This document shows, in pieces, positions 5,945-62,789 of a DNA stretch of 64,000 nt. Within the stretch, counting starts at the first letter, position 1; every line of letters begins with the position of its first letter. The stretch comes from a virus, in IMG/VR virus record IMGVR_UViG_3300025889_000073, positions 62,001 to 126,000 of that record; one strand, 5' to 3'. The position numbers and the translations under genes are program-made. The notes under the pieces are model-generated. The model saw only the letters and a program-made list of their open reading frames with translations, ran no database searches and was not told where the DNA came from.

Positions 5945-5978
5945 AAAGGAGGCAAAGTCAATAAGTCCTCCTTTTTTT
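5945..5978 (+). terminator. rho-independent terminator after gene 32
   Basis: AAAGGAGG (5945-5952) pairs with CCTCCTTT (5967-5974) across a 14-base loop and runs into a T tract. It ends the gene 32 transcript. The stop codon of the convergent minus-strand gene lies inside the T tract. Read from the minus strand the stem is the same but followed by few T residues, so it would be weak in that direction. Confidence 0.82.
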
Positions 5979-7788
5979 ATGACAATCTTTTATAGTATGC
6001 CGAACCCAAATCTTTTTTACTATCCCTTTTAATTGTTTTGTTCATTGCAACAACAGTTGTTTGCGGTGCATTTACAATAATTGGTGTTTGTGGCTTCATT
6101 TGTTGGCGCTGGCCAGAAGCAATTGAAGATGAAGCTGAAGCTACTGTTGAACCGCTGGCAGCCGTGCTTGTTCCGGTTATTTGTGGGTCATTTAAATAGG
6201 CTTCAAAATGTTCTTGTCTATCTTTTAAACCGATATAACCGCCATTGACGAATTTTGTCAATTTTTTAATATTACCCCAATCACCTTTGTAACCAGCCAT
6301 ATATTTTAAAGCACTTTCGGCCGCACCGGCCGGTTTTGTTAATTGGTCTGGGTCATTAACATAACCAAATCTGGTATAATTATTTTTGCCTGTAAGCTGT
6401 ATAAAGCCTCGGCCACGAAAATTCCATCCATCGCCGCCGCCTTCTGGTGCATTACCCATTCGGCCACCGTATATCCTCTCTGCAATACTTTTTGGTCCGC
6501 CTGCAGCGACTTTCTTTACATCATCTTGGCCAGAAAACTTTTTACCAAATAGTTTCATCAAAGTTGTTGGCCGATAATTTAAATTTTCACTTAGTGTGGT
6601 AAAACCTCCGGATTCGTGGCCAACTTGAGCCATGATTGCTGCTCTTTGTGTTGGATCCGTAATTTTTGCATTATCCATGGCTGCAATCATAGCTTGTTTA
6701 CCAGTTGAAGCACTTATTCTAACAGTTTTGGTACTTGATGTCGATTCTGGTTTCTTTTTTGTCGTAGGTGCTGGTGTGGTAGGAGCAGTTGCAGGTGCTG
6801 CAGCGGCTGGTGCAGGTTCTGGTGAAGTTGATTTTAACCTTAGTCCCCTGGTGCGGTGTGCCTTTCTACTTGCGGCCGCAGCTTTTGCTCTACCGGGGTC
6901 GGCAGGTGGTGTTGGTGGCGGTGCAGGTTTTGGTGCTGGTGCAGGAGGTGCCGGTGGTTCATATTCATCCATACCATACCCAAACTCTGAAGTTGCTGCA
7001 GCTGCTTGTTCACGTTTTACTTTATCTTCCGGTTTCTCTTTGATGAATGTGTTTTTAAATTTATCCCATTTTTCTTTTACTGAGTTCACCACACCCATAA
7101 ATTTATCCCAAATACCTTTTACATAACCAATTGCAACATCCGCAGCACCTTTTATTTTTTCAACAAAACCTTCAAACCAACTACCTATTTGGCCAAAAGC
7201 ATTTTTTACGGGTTCAACAATCCAATCATTAATAAAAGTTGATACTTTTTCCTTTATTGATTTTCCCAAATCTGTAAACCATGTTTTGATTTCTTGTACC
7301 CACTCATCAAATTTTGTTTTTATTGTTTCCCATAAATTTGAAGCCCATTCTTTAAAAGATTCGACTAAATCATCCCACAATAGTTGAAAATCTTCAGTTA
7401 ACGCTGCAATTGAAAAAACAGAAGCTAGAGCAATTAAAATATTTTCTAGCGAAAACATTTTTTTAATTTTTTGCCAAATACTCTCTTTCTTTTTGGTCTG
7501 AACAATTGGTGTAGGCGAAACATCCCCTTCTATTTTTTCCCTTTGTGCTTCTAGTGCAGCTTCACGTTCAGAAGCTTTTAAAAAAAATCTGTCTGCGCCT
7601 TGCCTTGGTTTTCCACCTTCAAGTTTAACCAGTTTTTGAGCCGCTTGTCGTGCAACATTTAAATCTCTTGCTACGTTTGGTAATACCAAGAAATTCTTAG
7701 AAATGATATTTAAAAATACTGATGCTTTATCAGATTTTACTGGTGATGATAGAGATGAGGATTTTTTACCTAAAATTTTATCTAACAT
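5977..7788 (-). CDS. tape-measure-like tail protein with C-terminal GH19 glycosidase
   Basis: The 603-residue protein has three parts. Residues 35-88 (LPNVARDLNVARQAAQKLVK to EREAALEAQREKIEG) are paralogous to the next gene upstream. Residues 114-131 are hydrophobic, followed to about 260 by amphipathic helices with regularly spaced Trp/Phe, as in tape-measure proteins. After a Pro/Ala-rich linker (about 275-350), a GH19 chitinase/lysozyme-like domain spans about 355-555, with catalytic Glu392 in GHESGGF, then ENLNYR, IYGGRMGN and GWNFRGRGFIQLTGKNNY. GH19 enzymes cut chitin or peptidoglycan; in a phage tail, peptidoglycan is the likely target during DNA entry. It is the last gene of the minus-strand tail operon, 3 bp after its paralogue. 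gp5 lacks a lysozyme domain, so this may supply that activity. Confidence 0.82.
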   Translation of the reverse strand: MLDKILGKKSSSLSSPVKSDKASVFLNIISKNFLVLPNVARDLNVARQAAQKLVKLEGGKPRQGADRFFLKASEREAALEAQREKIEGDVSPTPIVQTKKKESIWQKIKKMFSLENILIALASVFSIAALTEDFQLLWDDLVESFKEWASNLWETIKTKFDEWVQEIKTWFTDLGKSIKEKVSTFINDWIVEPVKNAFGQIGSWFEGFVEKIKGAADVAIGYVKGIWDKFMGVVNSVKEKWDKFKNTFIKEKPEDKVKREQAAAATSEFGYGMDEYEPPAPPAPAPKPAPPPTPPADPGRAKAAAASRKAHRTRGLRLKSTSPEPAPAAAAPATAPTTPAPTTKKKPESTSSTKTVRISASTGKQAMIAAMDNAKITDPTQRAAIMAQVGHESGGFTTLSENLNYRPTTLMKLFGKKFSGQDDVKKVAAGGPKSIAERIYGGRMGNAPEGGGDGWNFRGRGFIQLTGKNNYTRFGYVNDPDQLTKPAGAAESALKYMAGYKGDWGNIKKLTKFVNGGYIGLKDRQEHFEAYLNDPQITGTSTAASGSTVASASSSIASGQRQQMKPQTPIIVNAPQTTVVAMNKTIKRDSKKDLGSAYYKRLS

Positions 7789-7791
7789 TTT

Positions 7792-9702
7792 TTAATCCAT
7801 GTGTTGTAACAAATCTTCATCATGTGTGTCACCAATTTCATCATCATCATCTTGATTACTGGAACTCTTATTGGTTTTTTCAGCATTTATCATACTTCCT
7901 GAATCTGCTGCACTTTCCATTCTTTGTGATTCAGAAACACTTGATGATTCGGAAGAAATGCCAGCACCAGATGGAGAACCAGCTGATGAGCCAGAAGGTG
8001 TTATTGTTCCTCCTCCACTAGATGAGGTTTGTATAGATGTTCCTTCAGACACTCTTTTTGATAGACTCTTAACTTCTTCTGTTTGTTTGTCTTTCAACGC
8101 TTTTAGTTCTGGAATAGTTTCCCAATCATTCATTTTGACTCGGCCAATAATTTTACCTTCATCGTATAACTTATTAACTAAAGCTCTTCTTTCTTGGGCT
8201 TGTTTGTCTTCCATTTGTTGGAGCTGTTTTGAAGCTTCTTTTGCATCTGCTGATAAAACTCTTGTGGTGGTTTTAGAACCTCCACCAGTAGTTGTTGTGG
8301 ATGATGTGGATGATGTTTTGAAAGTCGAACCAGAAACTTTTGTTGGTTTCGTCATTACTTTTTCCAAATCATTATCGTCATCATCATCTTCTTTTTTCTG
8401 TCTCTTTAAAGCTGCTTCAACACCTGGTGCCATTTTTAATTTGGCCACAGTTGCTTTTTGATTTTTAATTAATGATTCCCATTTTTCATTTATAGCTCTC
8501 AATTCTGGAGGATATTCTGGGTCACTTGGGTCTTCTACAAAACCATCTTTATATTTCATAACTAAACTTTTGGCCATTTCGCCACGTTCTTTTTGCCAGT
8601 CAGAATACATTCCTTGCAATTCTGCTTGTGCCATTTCTAATTTTTGTAAGTTGTTATCACCTTCCATTTCAGCTTTGACGCTGTTAGTTTTGGTTGGTTT
8701 TTTAGTTTTGAGTTCAGCTTGTGTTGCTTTTGTTGGACTTTTACCTTTTGGTGGTTCTGGTTTCTTTTTAATTTCTGGTGCTTTAGGTCTTTCCATTTTA
8801 GGAGCTGGTATATCCGCATCTTTGACACCGGTATCAGAACCGAACAAACTAACGAACCAAGACTTTATACCATTAAATACTGAACCTATTTTTTCTAAAA
8901 TGGGATTTAAAAATCCTGATACCGAGTCCCAAACCGATTTTAAAGTATCTTCACCTAATAGTCCAAAGGTTAAGAAACTCATCATACCACCTAAACCAGA
9001 AAAAATAGCTTCACTTAAACTGCCGGTTTCTTGATATTTTTTCCAACCGGCTGTTATACCTGTAAATAATGTTGCAATGATTGTTAGAGGTAAAAAGACT
9101 TTACTGAATATTTTACCCAGCATTTTTGGTTTAAATAAATTTCTTATAAAACCAAAAACTGTTGTTTTAAAATTTTTAAATAAACCAGTTATACTGAATC
9201 CACCGCCACTATCTTCTTCTGTTTTAGTTATTACGGTTGGATTTGTTGGTTTACCTTCTATCTTTTCTTTTTGAGCTTCTAATGCGGCTTCTCTTTCTCC
9301 AGCTTTCAAAAAGAATCTATCAGCTGCACCTCTAGCTTGGCCACCTTTTAGTTTAACTAATTGTTGTAAGTTTTGACGTAGAACATTCATGTCTCTGGCA
9401 ATGTTTGGCATTACCATAGAGTTTTTTGCTACAACAGTTAATAGTGTTACAGACTCTTTGGATGTTATTGTATCGGATTCATCTTGTTTTTTATCCGAAC
9501 TTTTTATGTCGCCTAAAGAACCTTTACCTCTTATTTTACCTCTAATAAAAGCTGAAAGTATATCTTGACCTGGAAAAAATGATTCTGCTGCTAAATTTCT
9601 TGCATTTTTTACATTAAAGGTTTTACCTAAAGCTGAAGTTGCAGCTCCACCAAAACTTTTTCCAGATTGGAGTTCAGACAAGTATTTGTTTACTAGGGCC
9701 AT
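7792..9702 (-). CDS. tape-measure-like / baseplate hub protein, paralogue of the GH19 gene
   Basis: This 636-residue protein shares residues 96-150 (MPNIARDMNVLRQNLQQLVK to EREAALEAQKEKIEG) with its downstream neighbour. It then has a hydrophobic helix at about 200-218 (FLPLTIIATLFTGITAGW), a second weak hydrophobic patch (GLGGMMSFLTFGLLG, 235-250), amphipathic helices to about 295, and a long charged, low-complexity C-terminal half rich in Lys, Glu, Ser, Thr and Asp. It lies directly after the gp26 and gp51-like frames, where lambda-like phages carry the tape measure gene. Its length is close to T4 gp29 (590 residues), the tape measure and hub protein. I see no direct gp29 signature, so the role is inferred from position and composition. 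Confidence 0.65.
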   Translation of the reverse strand: MALVNKYLSELQSGKSFGGAATSALGKTFNVKNARNLAAESFFPGQDILSAFIRGKIRGKGSLGDIKSSDKKQDESDTITSKESVTLLTVVAKNSMVMPNIARDMNVLRQNLQQLVKLKGGQARGAADRFFLKAGEREAALEAQKEKIEGKPTNPTVITKTEEDSGGGFSITGLFKNFKTTVFGFIRNLFKPKMLGKIFSKVFLPLTIIATLFTGITAGWKKYQETGSLSEAIFSGLGGMMSFLTFGLLGEDTLKSVWDSVSGFLNPILEKIGSVFNGIKSWFVSLFGSDTGVKDADIPAPKMERPKAPEIKKKPEPPKGKSPTKATQAELKTKKPTKTNSVKAEMEGDNNLQKLEMAQAELQGMYSDWQKERGEMAKSLVMKYKDGFVEDPSDPEYPPELRAINEKWESLIKNQKATVAKLKMAPGVEAALKRQKKEDDDDDNDLEKVMTKPTKVSGSTFKTSSTSSTTTTGGGSKTTTRVLSADAKEASKQLQQMEDKQAQERRALVNKLYDEGKIIGRVKMNDWETIPELKALKDKQTEEVKSLSKRVSEGTSIQTSSSGGGTITPSGSSAGSPSGAGISSESSSVSESQRMESAADSGSMINAEKTNKSSSNQDDDDEIGDTHDEDLLQHMD

Positions 9703-9705
9703 TTT

Positions 9706-9900
9706 TTATCTTCTACTTTGTTTTTGTAATTCTAGTCGTTCTTTTTCTTCTTTTAGATAATTAACTAAAAGACCTACATATATTGTTCTTTCCCACGGCA
9801 ACATACTTTCCAATTCTGTGAGACTATATTTGTGGTGTTGTATCAATGCAAAATTAGTCTCATAATAATTTTTTAATGAATCATGACGAAAAATTAGACG
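9706..9900 (-). CDS. 51: gp51-like hub assembly protein, reached by -1 frameshift from gene 26
   Basis: After the gp26 stop an open frame continues for 64 codons from CGT at 9900 to TAA at 9706. It encodes RLIFRHDSLKNYYETNF, then ALIQHHKYSLTELESMLPWERTIYVGLL and a charged helical end. The NFALIQHHKYSLTE-ESMLPWER pattern resembles small proteins annotated as gp51 next to gene 26 in marine T4-like phages (from recall). The frame has no ATG, GTG or TTG between the TGA at 9937-9939 and the conserved part. The first in-frame ATG would start inside it and leave 33 residues. Translation most plausibly occurs by -1 slippage at U UUU UUC near the gp26 end, giving a fusion of about 306 residues. A non-canonical start is the alternative. 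Confidence 0.65.
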   Translation of the reverse strand, partial: RLIFRHDSLKNYYETNFALIQHHKYSLTELESMLPWERTIYVGLLVNYLKEEKERLELQKQSRR

Positions 9901-10625
9901 AAAAAATTTTGTATACCCTTTATTTCCACACTTTCTTCATAAGAACACTTTGGACATTTGAAAGCAATATCCTTTTTAATTTCAGGCATTGATTGGAAGA
10001 AATCTTTAAATTTTTCAATATCTTTTTGTTGCAAGTTGTCAACAAATTCTTCAAGTTCTTTTGGGTCTGTATCTTTAGAACGATATATTTGTTCATCATC
10101 ATAAATGTAATCGATACAGTCAACCAAAATTTTCATAATAATTTCATTTTCTTCCATATTATCATATTTTTGCAACATATCGAATGTTGGATATTTAAAA
10201 CAAATTCCTAACTTTTCCGTCAGCTGAATTTTGTTCTTGTGATTTTCGTGTTTTGTTGGTTCTATTTCTAAAAGATTGACATCAAATTCAACAACACCGT
10301 TACAAGTTTTTTCTTCACCATCTTCATTGGGTACTTTATTGTTGCACTTGTATGATAGGTGTACAACTTCTTCGACAGACCTTGCTCTGAGATTTAAAAA
10401 TAAGTATTCTAAATCAAAAGTCGGTAAATTGTCTATATTGATATCATCAATCACACAATTTTTTAATACCTGTCTAACTATTGAAACCATTTCATTTGGG
10501 TCGTTTGATTCGGATGACATTAGAAATAATTTCTGTTCTTTAACCAAAAATGGCCGAAATCTAACAGGTTTTCCTGTTGAAATTAAATCGATTGAATAAA
10601 TTGGTATGTCTAATTTTGGTAACAT
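9894..10625 (-). CDS. 26: gp26 baseplate hub subunit
   Basis: This 243-residue protein belongs to the T4 gp26 baseplate family (T4_baseplate, PF12322). It opens MLPKLDIPIYSIDLISTGKPVRFRPFLVKEQKLFLM, written here as the conserved block of residues 1-36. A zinc-ribbon-like domain follows: CNNKVPNEDGEEKTCNG (about 90-106) paired with FKCPKCSYEE near the end. gp26 is needed to build the T4 baseplate hub. Like lambda gpG it lies just before a tape-measure-type gene and ends in a slippery run (AAU UUU UUC GUC UAA) that could shift ribosomes into the gp51-like frame. It begins 19 bp after the tube-fold gene. Confidence 0.88.
   Translation of the reverse strand: MLPKLDIPIYSIDLISTGKPVRFRPFLVKEQKLFLMSSESNDPNEMVSIVRQVLKNCVIDDINIDNLPTFDLEYLFLNLRARSVEEVVHLSYKCNNKVPNEDGEEKTCNGVVEFDVNLLEIEPTKHENHKNKIQLTEKLGICFKYPTFDMLQKYDNMEENEIIMKILVDCIDYIYDDEQIYRSKDTDPKELEEFVDNLQQKDIEKFKDFFQSMPEIKKDIAFKCPKCSYEESVEIKGIQNFFV
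9900..9921 (-). promoter_or_regulatory. candidate programmed -1 frameshift site (gene 26 / gene 51)
   Basis: On the minus-strand mRNA the heptamer U UUU UUC (9906 down to 9900) is read in the gp26 zero frame as UUU UUC. It is a canonical X XXY YYZ slippery site. A Shine-Dalgarno-like AAAGGG (9921-9916) lies 9 nt upstream, where such sequences stimulate -1 slippage in bacterial dnaX. The zero-frame stop follows one codon later. A 7-bp stem GAGACTA/TAGTCTC (9861-9855 with 9826-9820) begins about 38 nt downstream, further than usual for a stimulator. Confidence 0.6.
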
Positions 10626-10644: not shown

Positions 10645-11394
10645 TTAAAATGCACTTCCTAGTGGTAAAATTCTCGCAGCAGCAGAACCAAATAAAGATG
10701 TTGCAGCAGAAGCTAAATCAAAAGTGCCTTGATAAATTGTTTTATATCTCTGATAAGCAAACTGAACTGAAAGTCTATGAAAACTATCATCAGCCCAACT
10801 TAAAGATTGTGGTGCTATTCCAATGGGAAAAGCATCAATTAATTCTACAGCATGAATTTGCCTAACCAATTCATCATATTGAATAATTTTAATATTAGTT
10901 AGGTATCTTGTTGTGGAACCTTTTGCATATCTCAAATTGTTTGTGTCCGAAGGATGTATTGCTTCAATCCAACGGTCAAATAATTTTCTTTCAAAAAAAT
11001 CATTGGTACACAAAAAAGTTAAATTTGTGTCACCATAAGATGTCTGATATGGCACCTTAAATGTAGGACCATATATTTTAACATCAGATGTTTGTAATGT
11101 CTTTCCTGGAAATTCTGCACTCTCACATTGTAGAGCTAGATATCTAGACACGGAAGAATTTGATGTTCTTGATTGTTCGTCTTGAGCTCCCTGAGAACCA
11201 AAAGCTCCTCGTATAGCGTCTGTAACGTCATTAAAAACTGAATTGGGAAAATTCAATATCTTTTCTATAATTGAACTTCCAATAAAACTATTTACATATG
11301 GGGGTATTGGTAATAAAACTTCGAATCTATTTGGCCTTGCTAAACCATCTTTTGCTCGAATGTTTGATAAAAATAAGTTAGGTGAGAATGACAT
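10645..11394 (-). CDS. 54: tail tube-fold protein, probable gp54 tube initiator (gp19/gp54 type)
   Basis: The 249-residue product has the tube-protein signature of the T4 gp19 superfamily: ARPNRFEVLLPIPP near the start, LALQCESAEFPGKTLQTSDVKIYGP, PYQTSYGDTNLTFLCTNDFFERKLFDRWIEAI (positions about 115-146), and a final VELIDAFPIGIAPQSLSW with HRLSVQFAYQRYKT. An insertion of about 50 residues (about 40-85, rich in Ser/Asn) and a hydrophobic Ala/Leu-rich C-terminus distinguish it from plain tail tube gp19. That and its location in a baseplate operon favour gp54, the baseplate protein that starts the tube. A gp19 tail tube paralogue remains possible. Its ATG directly abuts the preceding gene's TAA. 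Confidence 0.72.
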   Translation of the reverse strand: MSFSPNLFLSNIRAKDGLARPNRFEVLLPIPPYVNSFIGSSIIEKILNFPNSVFNDVTDAIRGAFGSQGAQDEQSRTSNSSVSRYLALQCESAEFPGKTLQTSDVKIYGPTFKVPYQTSYGDTNLTFLCTNDFFERKLFDRWIEAIHPSDTNNLRYAKGSTTRYLTNIKIIQYDELVRQIHAVELIDAFPIGIAPQSLSWADDSFHRLSVQFAYQRYKTIYQGTFDLASAATSLFGSAAARILPLGSAF

Positions 11395-24147: not shown

Positions 24148-27100
24148 ATGGTAACCAGAAGAAATACTAAAAATTCTCCACTAACTCACGAAGAACTCGA
24201 TGAAAATTTTCGAGAGCTTAGGTATGACACATCTTTACAAAGAGTTTTAGAAAATGGAAATACAACAAGTAATTCTATAGAATTGGAGAATCTTTCTGGT
24301 ATAACAAATGCAGAATTATATACAACACAAACAAACACTTTTAACGCAATAATAATTTCCCAAAATACATACACTACTTTACCAACAGCAAATGTAGATG
24401 AAGTGTTTGCTGGAACCGACCACTCCTATTTAATTGATGAGGTAGGAACTGTATATCAATTTGGAGATTTTAGGAATCAAGCAATAACATATGAGGGATT
24501 TGTTAATCCACAAGAAATATATACTGAAACTATTACAACAGAAATTTCTGCTGGAACAAAAGATATTATTGAAACTATTACTGATGGAATCTTTTATTTT
24601 AGTAGTGGAACAGGAACAGGACCAAATGGAGGTTTTAAAACACAAGATAATTTGAAATACTTATCTTTTACAGGTTCTTCTGATTCATTTGCTCCAGGAA
24701 ATACTAGAGTTTTAACGTCAAAAACATTAGACTTAACAACTTCAACTTTTGTCACAATAAATGCTATAAAAGGAAGTTTAGATAACGGCGGCCATGGAAA
24801 TTATTGGAATACTGTGCTTCCAGTTCTTATTGATGAACTTACTGATTTTCGTAACGAATCTTTAGATAACTTTGAATTGTTTTTACAATTTAGTGATGAT
24901 GATGGTTCATCTTGGACATATTCCGAAAAAATTAATGTAAACTTTGATTGGGATGACCATACAGTTTTTATACCAGAAAGGTATAAAACATCTCAATCAA
25001 AAATTAGAATAATACAAGCTCATATACTAAATCAATATTATCAACATTCTTTTTATAGAGACGTTAGTTTTAATTCTTTATATTATTTTTCAGATGGTTA
25101 TTACAAATACTTTCCGGAAAATGTTGGTAATCAATGGACAGAAGTTCCTTCTTTTGGTGTAAAATCAATTAAAATTTATGAAAATATTTCTAAGGGATAT
25201 TTAACATTTAGTGATAATGTTTTTTCTTACAAAAAAACTAAGATTGGCAATGGCTTTACTGTAGCTTTGAGAAGTGATGGTTTGGTGTTTTATTGGGGAG
25301 ATTTGTATCCAGTAACTCTAAATTCAAACACCTTAGTTGAACCTACACAATTACCCATAAATGGTTCATATGATAAAAAATTCATAGACCTTGCTGTTGG
25401 CAACGAATCAATATATTTAATTGATGAAAATAAACATTTGTGGGTTTTAGGAAACAATGATTTTGGTCAATTAGGTATTAATAATACGACACATCAATCC
25501 AATGAATTTATTGAACTCGATGGTATATGGGATAGTATCTATGCTTCAAGAAATTTTGTTTTTGGTATTAGAGATAAAGAATACACACTTTGGTCTTGGG
25601 GTCAAAATGATTGGGGGCAATTAGGAACAGGAAATAGATTGAATGTTTCTTCACCCGTTTTGATTAATGGTCCGAGAGAATGGGATAAAGTTTTTTTGGG
25701 ATATGATTCTTCTTATGCTAAGGAAAAAAATGGAACATTGTGGTTCTTTGGAAATGACACAAAAACTAAAAGTGGTATAACAACAGAATCTTTAAACGCT
25801 CAATATAGAATAAATGATGATAGGAAAAAAAATGAGGGATTAAAAAAAGTTGTAAGTACAAATGATGAACACTCTTTTGGTATTTCAAATAATAATATTT
25901 TATATAGATTGACAACTAGAGATGCGAATACATCAGGTATAAGAAACAAATCAACAATATTCACCACTAATAATTATGAAGATTATGACCAATTCCCTTG
26001 GCAAGTCTATGACAACAAACAATACATAGAACTTTTTGATGGGCACCAGCCTACTAGAAGGGAATGGATAGTTGACTATTACTTGAGTACTTTAGGTAAT
26101 AGTGATTGTTATCCTGAGTATGTTAATTATGCGATTGATATTGATAAAAAACTTTATGCTATAGAATCACACTATTCAAATGCTAGAGCGGGAATAATAA
26201 CATCTCCAATTGGTCTTAACTGGAATGAATATTTTTCAACACCAGTTCAAGTTACCTCTCCAGGAAGTGATTTGTGGAAAACAGGTACTGTTGGTAATTG
26301 GACTAATTTTGGTATTAAAGATGACGGAACTCTTTGGACATGGGGAAAGTCAGCAGCTTATTATAACAATTTTGGTGACCCCGAACATATATGGAATGGT
26401 CCCGAACCAATAAGTTCCTTCAGTAATTATAGAGTTCGCTTTGCTTATATTTCTTCACCCGTTTTAATTGATTCGGGAAATTGGAAAAGTATTTTTACAG
26501 GACACCACAGATATAATAATGAAAATTTAGGATACAGTAGACATTTTTATGGAGCACAAACAACTTTAGCTATTAAAGAAGATGATAAAACACTTTGGGG
26601 TTGGGGAAGAAATAGAATAAATGCTTTATTTCAATCAAATGACCCGATTATAATTAAAGATATATCTCAGACCAACAAAATAATTGCCGTTGATTCTTGG
26701 GGTACGGCTGGGGCTGCAAACACCGGGATTAACGGGGGACCTTATAACAATACAGCTCCTTCACTTTGGTCTAGTTGGGACAGAGGAGGTTTTGTTATAG
26801 ATTCCAAGAAAAAGTTGTTTGGTTGGGGTGCTGGTCATAAAATTACTCCTTCTGAACCGATTGGAGCTCCAGGCGCATTATTTTTTGTTGTGGACCAACA
26901 GTACGCCAGACAAATTGAGGAATATGATTGGATTGATTTTATGGCTTCCGGTTCTGAACAAATCAATACTTCATTTCCACAACAACAAGCAATTGCTACG
27001 AGTACAGGCACTTATTTAGGATATAAAGGTCAAGGTCTAAGATTAGGAATCACAGCTGAAGGTGAAATGTATGGTTGGGGTTACAATTTATATGGCGGAG

Positions 27101-30100
27101 CTGCAGGGTTCGGGGTCGGTAATTATCTGTCTAGAGCTGTTCGAGTAAGAGAATATGCAAATACCAGTATTTACGACATAAAATGGGCCAAGGTTAGTAA
27201 TTCTAAAAGTAATTTTGAACATAATGCAGCAATTGACCAAAATGGTAGTTTGTATATTTGGGGCCGAGGAACAAATTATAAACTTGGAACAGGATCCACA
27301 GCTTCAATTAATTATGTAACAGCTAATAAACATGAAAGAGGAACAAATTGGTTCTGGGGACAAGTCTCTTGTGGTAGAGAATGTACAGCTGCAATAAGAA
27401 ATGATGGAACATTATGGTTCACTGGAGAAATTTCTGGTAGTTGGAAACCAAGCACTTTCACTCAAGTTGGTACAGATAGTGATTGGATTTATGTTGTTTG
27501 TGGTTATAAGACAATTTTGGCTCAAAAATCCAATGGCCAAGTATACTCATTTGGTTGGGGTAATCAAGTAGCATCTGGATTAGTAGATTATAATACACAT
27601 AGATTGAGGACATCTGAACCAAGTGGTGCTCAAGAAGGTGAATTGATAGGATACAAATTCTTAGAACCTTCTGGAACACAAACGACTTTAGACGATGTTG
27701 ATTCTGGAACAATCAATTCTTCAGTTTCGGACACAACAGGTTCAAACACCACACTAACACCAGTAACTTCAGGAACAGGAACAGGTTCAACTGGCGGTTT
27801 TGTTGCATCTTTTTCAGGAAATTACCATTACAAATTTACTGGAACTGGTGATAGAAAAATGCAGAGTGTTCCTTTAGATTTGACAGGAAAAAAATCAATT
27901 TCATTTGATTATATTGTTGGTTTAAACACCAATGGAGCAGGAGAAACTTCACTACCTTCTCCATACGAGTACAGTAGTATAACTTCCAGTAACGGTATAA
28001 ATGTATTATTCTCTACTGATTCTGGGGTTTCATGGCAAGATTCTACTGGTAGTTACCCAGGCCAATTAATAGGATATAAAATAAATTTATTTCACTCTTT
28101 CTCTAGTGCTTGGAGAACTATTGCTGTAGAAATTCCTGCTTCAGCTCAAACAAGTGGAGTTTTAGTTAAAATATATGATGGTAGAACTTATGGTGCAGGT
28201 GAAGAAGGCATAAACGAATATGGTATTGATAATTTTAAATTAAATACTGATTTTAATTACACAACAATACCGTTTGTATTTAAAGACTTTTCAATTGATA
28301 TAGGTTCAAATACAGCTTCAGGCATTTTAACTACTGATGATTTAGAATTTTATAATTCATCAATCACAACAGCAAATACTAATGTAGCCACAATATGGGG
28401 TAGAATACACGACGAATATCTTTACAACACCTATAGAGGTTCTAACGTATATGTTCCTTCTAGAATACAGTTAAATGATGTGGAAAATTTTTCTGTTGCT
28501 AAAATACAATCTTTGTTTAGATTTGCAAATAATAAAACATATACTTTAGTAACAAATACCGCAAGGCCATATGAAACCAATCCTTGGACAAATTACCACA
28601 TCAATACGGAATTTAAAAAAATTGATGTTGAGCAAATTGATTATATTTCACAAATTTCAGAAGATAGATGGCAAAAAGCTGAATTTGTTCGTAATATGGT
28701 TATTGGATTGAAAGAAGATGGGACTCTTTGGTCTTGGGGATGGAATGATAATGGTAAAGCGGGTAATGGTTCTGCACCAGGATTAGGTCCTAGTCCAACT
28801 CCAAATCAAATGGTTCAGGTCAACAGTTTAGAAACACAAAATTTAAAATGGACCGATTTCACAAGTTCAGCAAATACTGTACACGGAATAACAGAAGATA
28901 ACAGATTGTGGAATTGGGGAACAAATGGAAGTTTCGAAGAATTTGGAGATGGAAACACCAGTACAACTTTAACTCATCTTCAGCCAATACAAATTGGCGG
29001 TTATCAGTCAGAATATGATTGGTATAAAGTTTCTGGACACAATAATTCTAGAATAGCACTAAAAAAGGATGGAAGTGCTTGGCATTGGGGCCGTGAAGAT
29101 AATGTTGTTACTTCTGTTTCTTCTTCTCTTATAAGTGTCTACAACAATAATATAACCTCTTGGTCAAATACAGTTAATACTTATCCTTACTTTGGATTAT
29201 ATGACGAAGCTGTAACTTATACATATACTTCGGGCCCGCTTGGCTCAATATTAACTGTCGACAGTGTAGATGACCATTGGTACAATAATGCAAATGTTAA
29301 TTTTTATCAAATACCCAGTTCAAACATATATGCTGTTAGTGCAAATTATGGTATTGAGCCTCCAGGAGGTACAGCACACGTTACGGATTATAAATGGAGA
29401 ATTCATAGTTATGAACCTGGTCATACATTAAATTATTCTCCTGCTTCAAATAATACTGGCGCTTTAAATAATATGGGACCAATGAATCGTCCTGGTTCAA
29501 ATTATCATTTGGTTTGTACTGGTAAACCAGAATACAAATATGCATCGAGTTATCCACATACTGGTGAAAATTACATTTTATTTGAACCCAAAGATAAACT
29601 ATCGAGAATTTCTTTTAGTATGATTAAAGGAAATAATTATAATGGTTTGGGAGCTACCTTACAGCAAGGAGGAACTGGTACAAAATTTTTATCTTTAGAG
29701 GTTTTAGAAGGATATTCTCAATATAGTTCAAATGATTATGGCCAAGTTGGCAACGCATTTAGAATGGCAAATAATGACCCTTGGATTTGGCCTCGGGCAG
29801 CAAATAATATAAGCATACAAACAGTTCAATATGAATCATTAGAATTTCATAACTTGGATGACCCAGAATGGTGGGAATTTGCAAATATACAAATGGATAC
29901 TATCACCACTCCAGGCCAAAATGAAACTTGGCAAGATTATGGACCTTTTTTTGTTGGAAGTTATAATTCAGGCGGAATGCAAACTTGGATTAGAATGAGA
30001 TACATTTCAACGGAAGATGATAGTAGTCAAGAAGAATATTATAGTTATAATAATTTTGCTATAGACAATGTAAATTTTACTTGGCTTAATGATTCGGTTT

Positions 30101-33100
30101 ATCCTATCCAATTGGTAGACTATAACTTTGAACAATTTGAAGTTGTTACTTGGAACAATGTAGCTTCTTGGAGTAATACTACTACTTCTTTTTACGGCCA
30201 GTCATCATCTCAAACAGAATCACCAATATTATTAGATTTTGGTTGGGAGTCTTTTGAATTTCCTACTTTGGTGGATAATGCAGGCGTACCTTATTTTAAA
30301 TTCAATGAAATAACTCCTTCAGAAGGCAATATTTACACTAGAGATAGTTTTGGTGCAAACGTATCCGCTACTAATAATGGTCTTATGGTTTTTGAAGATG
30401 ATACTAATAGAATTTATCGTTATAGTTTGAGTCCATTTTATTATCACGGTTATGTGAGTTTAGGTAGTACAACCGCCGAATTTGGAAGAATTGATTCCGC
30501 AGGTTCTATTTCTGCTGTTAGAAGTTCATTAGGTAATGTGCAACTTTATAATAATGAAACCGGACAACTTTACACTACTTTAAATTATTTGGAGTTTGGC
30601 AATTCATCATATAATACTTTTGGAAAAGATGTTGCCGTTTATGATCAATATGTAGCTATTATTGATACTAGATATGTTTATGTTTATCATGTTGGTAGTT
30701 TACAAAAGGTTTGTCAATATTATTTTGCATCAACAGTTAATAAAGTTGATATTCATGGTGAACATTTAGTTGTCGGTGTAGGAAGTAATGTTTATGTTTT
30801 TAAATTTTTAAATTATTTAAATGAACAAGGTCAAATTAACCCTGGATTTCAGTACTCTTATAATTTATCAATACCATCTACTTCCCAAACAATAAGAATT
30901 AATGATAATTATATTGCAATTTCTTATAATACTTTTTATGGTCCAACAATAAGAGTTTATCCGATAATTACTAATTCTCCTTTTGTTATTGGTAATTATT
31001 TTGAATTTCCTTGGAATGATTATTATGAATCAGGTTATAGTCCTATTTCAAACCGTAGTTTCGGTCTTGCTATGGAATTATCGGACAAAAATATATTAGT
31101 AACTTCTGAACCTAGAGCTGTAAATTATTCAAATACTGCTGTAGGTGTTGTTTTAGTATATGATTTAGACATAAGAAAGTTTTCTTATGCTATAGAAAAT
31201 CCAAATCCTCCGGAAGGATTTAATGTCCCTCAATCGGACGTATTTGGTTCATCAGCAGATTTTTTTGGAAAATCTTTATCAATTAATCCAGAAGGAACAC
31301 AATTAATAATTGGCGCACCGGTCGATAATTATTATTCCGTTAATAAGGTTGGTAAAGTTTATGTTTATAGATTAGGCTCTCAATATAATGATAAAAACTG
31401 GATTGACATTTCTTCCGGTATGAGCAACGGATTAGCTGTTAAAAATGATGGAACATTATGGGGTTGGGGAGAAAATAAAGACGTAAGAATTCTTTTAGAC
31501 GAATTCGAATTAAATGATGCATCTACACCTGTTCAATTGTCTTCTTCTGGAGCTACTGATATAGCAATTGGAGATAAACATTTAGGTTATTTAAAGGGAT
31601 CATTATATGTCTGGGGTGAAAATGATTGGGGACAATTAGGAACAGGAACTACATATTCAACTTCCACTCCAACAAGCATAGGTGTCGGTTTTGAAAAAAT
31701 ATTTTTTGGCCAAGATAGGTCTTTTGGAGTTAAAACTGATGGAACACTATGGGCTTGGGGTAGAAATACATATAGAGAATTGGGAATAGGTTCCGGAACT
31801 TTACCAGTTTCTAGTCCTGTTCAAGCTGGTTCAACAATTGGATGGAAATACGTTGATGCTAAAGCTCCAAGATTAACTGTAGGTGTTGATTCGAACAATC
31901 AAGTCCGTAAATGGGGCCAGTATATAAGTGGGCCGCCTCCATATACGACACCAATTACTAGCGCTCCAACTTTAGATAGTGATTTTGGTACAAATATAGA
32001 AAAAGTTGCGGTTGTACCAAAACCTCAGGCTAATACAATAATATTTGCTTTAGACACTTCGGGAAATTTATTTGCTAAAGGAACAAATAGCGAAAGATAT
32101 TTTGGTTTTTGGGAAAAAAATTATGACATAGCTCAAATAAATTCTGGAAACCATCTTTTTTACGGACATTCTACTGATTTTTTTATTGATTCATCTGGAA
32201 ATTTATTTGCTTGGGGTAGTAATGATTCTCACGGATTAGCAATTGGTTCCAGTGATGAGACTTTATATTACAGTACACCCGTTCAAGTTGGTTCAGGTTT
32301 TAAAACCGTAGCTTCAGCTCCAAGCACAACTCATCTTTATTCGTCATATGACAATTCAACATTTTGTCCTTGGAATTCTGCAAATAGAAACAAAGACGGA
32401 AAAAATATAATAAATCCCACTACAGGAGTTAAATTTTTACCTGGTTCTCAAACATTTTACGGTATATCTGATGTCGGACATTTAATGGTCTGGGGTAGTT
32501 GTAAAGGATTTAATGCTCAGGGAACCAACATTTATAGTAACGTATATTCTTCTCCTACAATATTAGACAACACACATAATTGGACTCAAGCGAGTTTAGG
32601 AACAAATCTTTTTGCCGCTATTGATTCAAACGGTTATTTGTTTTTAAGAGGTGACAATTATTGGTATGATGTTCCTGGCTGGTGGGGTTATTACATGAGA
32701 GATACTATTGGTAGACCTTGGCCACCTTTAAAAGATTTGAAACAACATTACAGAGACCATTATGGATTAAGTTCTAGTACGGTTGTACATTTAAACGATT
32801 TATTATTCCACCATACACCTGAAGATACCCTTCCTGTAAATGTTTATTGGGGTTATAATTTTAACAAATCTTCTTTCACACAGATAGGGACAGATACGTG
32901 GCAAAAATGTTTTGTTTCTTATAACTACCCTAGAATTCCATTAAATTATAATCTTACAGGTAGTTTTTTTGGTATATTCGCCAACGGTGGAGATGATTAT
33001 GTTGACGAAAATACTTTTGTTCCTTCTGATGATATTTTTAATACATTTGGTGGAAAATTATATTTTAATAATCTTTTTGCAATAAAGAGTGACGGTACTC

Positions 33101-36100
33101 TATGGGTTGCAGGACCAAATTGTTATGGTGAATTGGGTGTGGGTGACATTCAACCCAGGTCAGTATTAACTCAAGTTGGAAGTTCAACATGGAGTCATAT
33201 AACTTCAGTACAAGGAACTACATTAGGAATTCGTTCTGATGGTACTTTATGGTCTTGGGGTAGAAATACTTTTGGATGTTTAGGTTTAGGCCAAGAAGAA
33301 ACTGTTTTACCTTTTGTTTCATCTCCAACCCAAGTCGGCACATCAAATGCTTGGAAAGACGTAAAAATCTTCACTCACTCGGAATCTTTGCCTGAAGCAC
33401 AAGCATCAGATGGTTATCTTATTGATTATGATGATGATTATTTTACTGATTATTGGTTACCATATCATCCTTGGCCAGTTGATATAGTAGTGTATGCTGT
33501 CAAAACCGAAGATGATGGTAATGATAAAATTTATGGTTGGGGATATAATAGATATGTGACTACTGATACAACTGATTTTTCATATACAGGCAGTACACTA
33601 TTTGGTAAAACGTATATTACTACAAATTCTTATAATTTAGATGGTTCTGGTGTTGCTAATGTGACTTCTCCAGATTCAATGGATGTAAGATATGGAGAAT
33701 GGCCCGAACAATGTGAAGTTATACAGTTAGGAGATAAAACAGCTTTACTTAGAGATAAATTTTCAAATCAAAATACTAGAATTTATTGGGGAACATCAAC
33801 GTGGGGTTTACAATCGGTAAACTCTACTCAAACTTCTGTTGGACAACCGGGGTCTTTTTTAGGAGATTTTGAGGATTATGTTACAACTCACGAATTTAAA
33901 GAATCTTGGCCAATTATTTTTAGAACGGATGAAGATTCAGTTATTCAAATTGCTCCACAAAAAACTTGGTTGGATATAGAATCTGGAAATAATGAAATTT
34001 ACGCTGTTGAAAGTGGAACAGGAGATATCTATAGATTTGGATATATGAGAGGTCCATTAATAAAAGGTTCTGGAGGGTTTAGTAATGTAATACCTACTTA
34101 TTTTACTTCCGGTTACGGCATCGATCAATCATATTTTGGTTTAAAAACTGGTTCTTTAGACTACGATGTTTATGCGTGGGGCTCGCCAAGGGCCGGTAAA
34201 TTAGGAAACGGAGAACATAGTGCAATTACTGTAAGTGATGCTTCTCCTTTTGTTTGGACAACAGAAGTTTCTAAAATATTAAGCACAGATACGAACACAT
34301 TATATTTAACGAGCTCAGGTCAAGTTTATACTTTAGGTGTAGCTGATTCTATTGGTTATCTCGGTAATGGTAAAGTGAAGTATTCTTTAGAACATTATGG
34401 TGAAATATATTCTTATCCCGTTCAAATTGGTGATGATACAAATTGGTCAAATGTGAAAACAGGAAATTATCATGCAGCTGCTTTGAAAGAAGACGGTACT
34501 TTGTGGACTTGGGGACTTGGAGCAAATTATAAGTTGGGATTATTTGGTAGTTCGAATAGGTCTAGCCCAACACAAGTTACCGAAGGACCGACAACAGGAA
34601 GTAATTATTGGAGTACTATTGAAGATTTAGATTCTTCCAAAACACTAACAAAAAGAGCTGACGATTCTCTGTGGATTTCTGGAACAGATGATTTAACTTT
34701 ATATTATGATTCCCTCTATTATTTTGATTTGATTGGAAATTATGGAGGACTAAGAAATGTTAGACAATTACCAGAAAGATTTGGTAAATTTAAGAAAATA
34801 GTTTCTCTAAGAAATCTTGTTGTTGCTATATCTAAAGATGATGGCTCACTTTGGTATTGGGGTAAAAGTATTAAAAAGGTGCCTGGAATAGATGATAACT
34901 CCACTTGGAGTGAACCTAGTAGATTTACATTCAGCTTAAATTTTGATAAGAAAAGACCTAAACCACCTTCTATAGGATGGACAGATGTGCATATTGCACA
35001 AGTTTATGGAACTGATTATGATGGTAGTTTATCCACTAACGATGCAACGTGTTACTTTAATATGGTAGCACTACATGAAACAGAAGGTGCTTGGATTTGG
35101 TCTAAAAACTGGACTGGAGAATATGGGTACAACGATACGACATCAATGGAAGAATGGGTTACAGAACCTATAAACCAAACAAAACTTTTACCAGGCGATT
35201 CTGGAGCTAATTTTTATGATATTTCAAAATTACCGGACCCATGGTCTAACGATGCAAATACTACTTTGGGTAAAGGTATTGTAGAAACGCAAAATTGGAA
35301 AACTGGAAATTATTGGAAAAAAGTTCAAGTGGGTATTAAATCTGCTGAACATTTAAACTCTAATTGGTATGCTCCTAATTTCACCAATTTTTATATGGAC
35401 AGCGGTGAAGAATGGCACGATTTTACTAGAAGAGCAGGATACGTTTATGCTTTGGACCGAGACAACAATCTTTGGGTCTGGGGAGGAAACTACAAACACG
35501 CTTTAGGTAAGTACTGGATAAATGACCATTTTGGTACTGTTGACAGCTATTTACTTTATAATGAAAGTAGCATAAAATTTATAAGTCTATCAACTAGAGC
35601 CTTACCGCCTGCTTTTTTCGGTCTCTCTCCGCAAAACCATTTTTATCATGGCGCAGATTATTATAATCATAGTTCGACACCAGTTTTGGTTGGTTATGGC
35701 TATAGTGAAACTTCCGGGAGTAATTGGACGTATAACATCGATGAGAAAAATAGTTTTGATTTAGGTGTAAAAGATTTTTGTTTAAGTTATACATTGGATA
35801 ATATAATTTTAACATTAGACAATAAACTTTGGACACCAAACACCAATTCTGGTCTTACTAATTCTGGCCATACAGAACAATGGATTTATAGAGATTATTT
35901 TTTACCTAGATTGTTGATTTCTGAAAATGTTGAAAAAATATTTTCTGGTGTTGATAACTTTGCTATGATAAAAGAAGATGGGACTCTTTGGATGTGGGGT
36001 TATGGAACTTATGGTAAATTAGGAACAAATAGTACAACATATCAATCAACACCAACTTTAGTTTATACTCCAATTAATAATTGGAAAACAATTTATTGTG

Positions 36101-61649: not shown

Positions 61650-62789
61650 ATGGCAGGTTATTATACCTATAATGGAGGCCTAATAGGTACAGGTCAAATA
61701 TCAGAAGTTGCAGGTGTTCATGATTTAAGAAGAAATTTACTTACACCACCAGGTGCTTTTTATACATTTTCTACCCACACATTTACTACTGCTGGAAATG
61801 ATACGAGTAGAAATGGACCAACTTTAAGTGAGGTACAAACATCTTATAGTAGTGAAATATGGACTTCAGATAGTAGTTTTTTGAATGTGTATTCAGGAGT
61901 ACAACTTTGGAAAGTACCCGCAACAGCAAATTACGACATAACAGCAGCTGGAGCACGGGGTGGTAGTGGTATAAATGGTACTTCCTATACTTCTGCTGGT
62001 AGTGGTAGAATAGTTAGTGGCAGAGTTTCTTTAATAGCAGGCGATGTTATAGCAATTATCGTTGGAGCTATTGGTAATGAAAGAGGTGGCGGCGGCGGAA
62101 GTTTTGTTTGGTATTGGGGAAATCCCATAAGTTCTGGTCCAGGTACTCAAAATTTAATTATAGCTGCTGGCGGCGGAGGAGGAGGAGGCGCTTGGCCATC
62201 ATCAGGAAATTGGGCTGATGCTCCGCAATCAGAATCAGCAGTATCTTGGTTTGCATTAACTCCGACAACTTATGTAACATATAACTCACCTCCAACTAAT
62301 GGCGGTTCTGGTGAACAAAGAGACAATACTGTTAATTATTGGGATGGCTGTCCTGGCGCAGGATGGAACGAAGACGGAGTAGTACAGACAACTGCGCCAA
62401 CAGCGTATTATACTACATGGGGAGAAACAGCTGATACTTCTAATAGTACTATTATGGGAGCGCTATCACCAAAATCACCAGTTTCGCCTGGAAGAGGTGG
62501 AATAGCTTGGTTTAATAGTGCTGGAGGAAACCCCGATGGAAGTGGCGCAGGTGGATTTGGTGGAGGAGGAACTATGGGAGGAGACAATGCATCCGCCTCT
62601 GGAGTTGGCGGCGGTGGCGGAGGTTATAGTGGCGGATGTCAAGGCGGCAACAATGGCGCCAGCAGCGCCGGCGGCCGTGCTCAAGGAGGCGGCGCCGGCA
62701 GTTACTTAAATTCATCTCCTTACCTAACTAATAAAACTTGGGGGTCTACTAATAGTGGTGCGGGTTACGTTACAATTACAAAAGTCTGA
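61650..62789 (+). CDS. glycine-rich tail adhesin resembling the ALK/LTK glycine-rich domain
   Basis: This 379-residue protein contains GVQLWKVPATANYDITAAGARGGSG with Trp87, followed by GRVSLIAGDVIAIIVGAIG, RGGGGGSFVWYWG, LIIAAGGGGGGGAW, and two long Gly-rich runs to AGGFGGGGTMGGD and VGGGGGGYSGGCQGG. The order (strand with WKVPAT, GAxGG, IxVG, LIIAAGGGG, Gly-rich repeats) matches the glycine-rich domain of the receptor kinases ALK and LTK, in which polyglycine helices pack together (Pfam PF12810 also includes bacterial and phage proteins, from recall). Glycine-rich adhesins of the T2/S16 gp38 type recognise receptors on phage tails. Here the gene follows fibre genes, so a host-recognition tip is likely. 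Confidence 0.75.
   Translation: MAGYYTYNGGLIGTGQISEVAGVHDLRRNLLTPPGAFYTFSTHTFTTAGNDTSRNGPTLSEVQTSYSSEIWTSDSSFLNVYSGVQLWKVPATANYDITAAGARGGSGINGTSYTSAGSGRIVSGRVSLIAGDVIAIIVGAIGNERGGGGGSFVWYWGNPISSGPGTQNLIIAAGGGGGGGAWPSSGNWADAPQSESAVSWFALTPTTYVTYNSPPTNGGSGEQRDNTVNYWDGCPGAGWNEDGVVQTTAPTAYYTTWGETADTSNSTIMGALSPKSPVSPGRGGIAWFNSAGGNPDGSGAGGFGGGGTMGGDNASASGVGGGGGGYSGGCQGGNNGASSAGGRAQGGGAGSYLNSSPYLTNKTWGSTNSGAGYVTITKV

Follow-up and report, generated by a model that had tools for sequence, protein, structure and literature searches.

A predicted -1 frameshift locus joining gene 26 to a start-less gp51-like frame in T4-like phages

A gp51-like reading frame that follows gene 26 in an uncultivated T4-like phage has no evident start codon, which raises the question of how it is translated. 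The frame is found in a 64,000 nt stretch of DNA (the window) that represents positions 62001–126000 of the 171,728-base viral record IMGVR_UViG_3300025889_000073. Genes on the minus strand of the window encode a gp4-like head closure protein, a gp2-like DNA end protector, a tail-tube-like protein, gp26, the start-less gp51-like frame and two large tape-measure-like proteins. A search of the window for phage tRNAs revealed none. An open frame of 4571 residues is present on the plus strand at window positions 24148–37863. The features of the locus, in window positions, are as follows.

10645..11394, minus strand: tail-tube-like gene directly upstream of gene 26 (phrog_45, E=1e-34)
9894..10625, minus strand: gene 26, predicted short tail assembly chaperone (TAC-N like), 243 aa (PF12322, E=1.3e-60; phrog_150, E=3e-65; AlphaFold pLDDT 87)
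9916..9921, minus strand: Shine-Dalgarno-like AAAGGG, proposed frameshift stimulator, 9 nt 5' of the slippery site
9900..9906, minus strand: slippery heptamer U_UUU_UUC, in X_XXY_YYZ phase
9894..9896, minus strand: gp26 zero-frame stop UAA, one codon past the heptamer
9706..9906, minus strand: -1 frame gp51-like tail, FF plus 64 residues, with stop at 9706-9708 (phrog_634, E=6e-28)
7792..9702, minus strand: tape-measure-like gene 1, with its ATG 4 nt past the -1 frame stop (homology to gene 2)
5977..7788, minus strand: tape-measure-like gene 2, with an endolysin-like domain (tape-measure PHROGs, best E=2e-11; phrog_181 endolysin, E=5e-51, residues 366-533)

The junction of gene 26 and the gp51-like frame

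The 3' end of gene 26 reads, by codon, ATA AAG GGT ATA CAA AAT TTT TTC GTC TAA. It contains the canonical heptamer U UUU UUC one codon before the UAA, with AAAGGG 9 nt upstream, and both elements are located as the preliminary description had placed them. After a -1 slip the frame is open as far as the stop at 9706-9708 and the predicted fusion is exactly 306 aa, in agreement with the approximate length proposed earlier. The -1 segment matches phrog_634, a family annotated as 'baseplate hub assembly catalyst' (gp51). When the fusion is treated as one protein it has a bit score of 262.5 to phrog_150 vs 221.3 for gp26 alone. The 64-codon frame was described as having no ATG, GTG or TTG before its conserved segment, and such a codon is indeed first reached within this segment, as a TTG located 50 nt beyond the gp26 stop.

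Gene 26 and the start-less gp51-like frame very probably constitute one locus, predicted from the sequence to encode a two-length tail assembly chaperone by way of -1 slippage. Most ribosomes would stop at the UAA and produce gp26 of 243 aa. A minority would slip -1 on U_UUU_UUC, probably held there by 16S rRNA pairing to AAAGGG, with the tRNA-Phe in the P and A sites re-pairing from UUU/UUC to UUU/UUU. The shifted ribosomes would then read CGU CUA AUU and onward into the gp51 tail, which would give the 306-aa gp26-51 fusion. If the locus works like lambda gpG/gpGT, the tape-measure protein would be coated by a large number of gp26 molecules and a small number of fusions, and tail-tube subunits would be recruited by the tail segment of the fusion. 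The slippage itself, its rate and the chaperone role are what we infer from these features and from those described below.

The locus lies between the tail-tube-like gene and the tape-measure-like genes, as expected from the lambda-like layout that had been proposed. The two tape-measure-like genes are paralogs over about 200 residues in their N-terminal halves (36% identity, E=5e-27). Gene 1 has no family match of its own, and the endolysin family match is found only in gene 2. Three tail-tube-like genes are present in the 171.7 kb record, at record positions 72462-73418 (the copy at 10645-11394 in the window), 136491-137063 and 143639-144184, and the copy adjoining gene 26 probably does not encode the main tube protein. 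There is a single PF12322 copy and a single gp51-like match in the 171.7 kb record, and a search of this record for a second gp26 or gp51 found none.

Conservation of the heptamer and selection on the -1 frame

An initial scan of IMG/VR yielded 80 relatives with gp26 identities of 65-76%, and in each of them this heptamer lies two codons ahead of the stop. An alignment-based scan extended the comparison to relatives with identities down to 33% and, with isolate phages included, gave 142 distinct loci. The non-Ackermannviridae set consists of 140 distinct loci, or 92 clusters at 80% amino-acid identity. A comparison of gene 26-51 junctions across relatives had been suggested in the preliminary description, and it shows that the heptamer is kept throughout this set: an in-frame U_UUU_UU[C/U/A] followed by a gp51-like -1 frame is found in 140/140 loci. 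The variants are TTTTTTC (118 loci), TTTTTTT (21) and TTTTTTA (1), all in X_XXY_YYZ phase. TTTTTTC is also found in the further isolates SRB7757, OLIVR5, Marine virus AG-345-D19 and Vibrio 6E35-1b; an Ochrobactrum phage has TTTTTTT and P10VF has TTTTTTG. As a background test, 307 other ORFs of at least 150 aa from the same loci were examined for a heptamer in the last 12 codons together with a -1 frame open for 50 codons. The heptamer is present in four of these ORFs, all of them mechanical reverse-strand ORFs, and the combination is present in none of the 307. The conservation of the heptamer with its gp51-like -1 frame far exceeds chance.

The Ackermannviridae are exceptions with respect to the site. 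In BPS6, Guerrero, Kuja and phiA8-29 the gp51 tail is also in the -1 frame and has no start in the first ten or so codons, except for a TTG in Kuja. The site is N_NTT_TT[C/T], with poor P-site re-pairing, i.e., ATT TTC, CTT TTT or CTT TTC replace the canonical heptamer (L086 3744, L190 4741, L091 3744, L188 3744). About 500 bases after gp26 are unannotated in Guerrero.

The codons that make up the site are more constrained than the protein they encode. Across the 92 clusters the residue before FF is N, S, D, A or G, yet T is the third base of its codon throughout, and TTT is used for the first Phe in every cluster. The log10 probabilities are about -19 for the T-ending codon and about -13 for TTT, values that overstate the strength of the result in that the clusters are treated as independent. 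The zero-frame residue after TTC varies (V 69, G 23, A 13, E 6, D 4), and the -1 residue at this point is Arg in 115/118 sequences. The zero-frame stop is shifted in several loci (L137, L154, L168 and L174), and in these the heptamer has the same position with respect to the -1 protein.

Over codons 3-17, which lie between the gp26 stop and the first conserved Met, the -1 frame has a pN/pS of 0.34, and of 0.15 when the close clade is taken by itself. The 83 sequences contain 0 stop codons in the -1 frame, vs 72 and 179 in the other two frames. By these measures the -1 frame is under purifying selection upstream of any start codon.

The same data bear on two other explanations of the split frame. 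The first is that an assembly error or a disabling mutation has divided an ancestral long gene, and the long form does exist as one open frame in T4-type phages. However, 140 distinct contigs and isolate genomes show this split and both parts are under selection, and such conservation rules out an error or mutation of this kind, the probability of which we consider negligible. The second is transcriptional realignment, in which RNA polymerase and not the ribosome would slip on the U run. The site is a T run, and 21/140 loci have seven or more T. In 118/140 loci, however, there are exactly six T followed by C, which is shorter than the runs usually needed, and the codon phase and the Shine-Dalgarno-like sequence at a fixed spacing point to the ribosome. 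Polymerase slippage is thus a very improbable source of the fusion.

The Shine-Dalgarno-like site and the start of gp51

Pairing to the anti-Shine-Dalgarno sequence among the 92 cluster representatives peaks in the 9-mer that starts 15-16 nt before the heptamer. The pairing energy is -5.6 kcal/mol vs -4.6 kcal/mol for synonymous recodings (z about -8.8), as calculated with the E. coli anti-Shine-Dalgarno sequence, which is assumed and may not be that of the host. The placement of AAAGGG fits a Shine-Dalgarno sequence that would detain ribosomes on the heptamer and is unfavorable for initiation of gp51. A downstream hairpin or pseudoknot that might stimulate slippage was also sought, and no consensus structure common to the family was found. 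Single-sequence folding downstream is modestly stronger than in synonymous controls, with a mean z of -1.2 to -1.3 vs -0.5 to -0.6.

A different reading of the locus is that ribosomes terminating on gp26 reinitiate and make a separate small gp51 from a start of its own, which could be an internal UUG or a non-canonical AUU or CUA close to the gp26 stop. An ATG is present just past the gp26 stop in P-SSM2, P-RSM6, ValKK3, DLP6, phiM12 and P10VF (2-8 nt past it in the first four), and public annotation starts gp51 at or near this ATG in the relatives that carry one. In 117/140 loci, however, an ATG first occurs in the -1 segment at codon 18 or beyond, within the conserved core; Aeh1 has no start before the core either, and SRB7757 lacks a start codon throughout the -1 frame. 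The purifying selection acts on residues that lie upstream of any start. The Shine-Dalgarno-like site is 9 nt from the heptamer but about 21 nt from the AUU, which is too far for initiation. A separate gp51 would also leave the invariant NNT-TTT-TTY codons unexplained, and the same segment is fused in frame to the gp26 domain in T4. Independent initiation of gp51 is therefore quite improbable.

The preliminary description held that relatives with an ATG for gp51 at this place and no conserved slippery site would speak against frameshifting. The ATG after the gp26 stop is found in some cyanophages and in Vibrio and Rhizobium phages, but the heptamer is kept there too. In relatives with such an ATG a free gp51 tail may thus be produced in addition by reinitiation, which is hardly to be expected in the phage described here. 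Dual decoding, with gp26, the fusion and a free gp51 tail all produced in phages that have an ATG overlapping or just past the gp26 stop (TAATG in Vibrio phages, TGATG in Rhizobium phages, and some cyanophages), appears rather unlikely. If it does take place, the start-less lineage of the window would have two products only.

The start-less frame is poorly represented in public annotations. The gp51 tail is an unannotated gap separating gene 26 from the following gene in cyanophages ACG-2014d (L191 2526-2712) and ACG-2014b (L192 2526-2705) and in Aeromonas phage Aeh1 (L088 3017-3182), and no joined gp26-51 gene is annotated among the public genome records examined.

Relation to T4 gp26 and gp51 and to tail assembly chaperones

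In T4-type Straboviridae the gp26 family (PF12322) and the same C-terminal gp51 tail are present, but as two divergent genes with no frameshift, whereas the phage described here has a single locus with a single copy of PF12322. In RB3 and Aes508, for example, gp26 and gp51 are separate divergent genes. The gp51 of RB3 consists of a PF12322 region (residues 1-201, E=4e-55) followed by the tail, and its match to phrog_150 runs end to end with E=7e-88. An hhalign comparison of the gp26 profile with T4-type gp51 gives 96.9% (E=2e-10), and the -1 tail matches the C-terminus of T4-type gp51 at 96.7% (E=4e-10); the -1 tail gave no hhalign match to gp26. T4 gp51 is thus an in-frame gp26 domain plus tail, which implies that T4 carries the short and long forms as two genes. 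T4-type gp26 sequences form one group in a tree and T4-type gp51 sequences form another, which is the pattern that one duplication taking the place of the frameshift would give, in a tree whose root is not settled. On these sequence comparisons, T4 genes 26 and 51 resemble a frameshift-type locus that has been duplicated and put in frame. A published account of T4 (PMC3004832) lists both proteins among the chaperones of hub assembly and describes gp51 as an essential protein whose function is unknown and which is missing from the particle.

In the model for phage lambda, many gpG and few gpGT molecules are on the tape measure and the T segment recruits the tube protein (PMC5009743). The predicted gp26 products resemble lambda gpG/gpGT and HK97 gp13 in that a short form and a rare -1 fusion come from a locus immediately ahead of the tape-measure gene, but differ in that gp26 has no sequence match to solved chaperones. 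The HK97 chaperone chains are 104-107 residues and gp26 is much longer. The slippery heptamer of lambda differs from U_UUU_UUC. A comparison of gp26 and gp51 with tail assembly chaperones had also been suggested at the outset, and a sequence search of the PDB with profiles of both proteins revealed no relative.

The gp26 structure was modeled with AlphaFold; the run with 85 sequences (pLDDT 87) was used and a single-sequence run (pLDDT 33) was discarded. A Foldseek search of the model against the PDB gives the HK97 tail assembly chaperone 2ob9 (probability 0.75, E 0.92), followed by 5ir0 (0.60), 3fgx (0.47) and YqbN 3klu (0.38), all with E near 1. The entries 3fgx and 3klu are chaperone relatives. 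As all E values are near 1, the likeness of the gp26 fold to HK97-type chaperones is suggestive only. The assignment of gp26 and gp51 to the frameshift class of tail assembly chaperones, as proposed in the preliminary description, is supported on the predictions that it makes for sequence, i.e., the heptamer, the start-less tail, the selection and the position of the locus.

Similar chaperones have been described in Vandenendeviridae and Andersonviridae (phage Adele, PMC12846349). They are alike in having a -1 frameshift into a tail that is intergenic or a hypothetical gene, and a poly-T motif; the motif is GTTTTT, unlike the heptamer here, and the likeness is one of description. T4-like tail assembly chaperone genes were identified by Vladimirov, Gautam & Davidson 2022 (Virology 566:9-15), as that work is cited in PMC10885494 and PMC12846349. 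The PRFect paper (PMC10885494) cites it for T4-like phages with a short gene and a longer fused gene and no frameshifting, and the Adele paper attributes to it the finding of poly-T slippery sequences within the 'TAC-N genes of T4-like phages'. From these citations, the same short-plus-long idea applies there, and the present lineage is an uncultivated T4-like group. Given the credit in the citing papers, the idea of a frameshift chaperone in T4-like phages has very probably been published, and the gain here is therefore in breadth and detail and not in a new principle. What may be added is the breadth of the comparison, the start-less tail, the tests of selection and the Shine-Dalgarno evidence.

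Since the start-less gp51 is missed or mis-started in public genomes, these annotations should be corrected. The short and long chaperone pair of T4-like phages would represent one frameshift-type locus across a wide range of phages.
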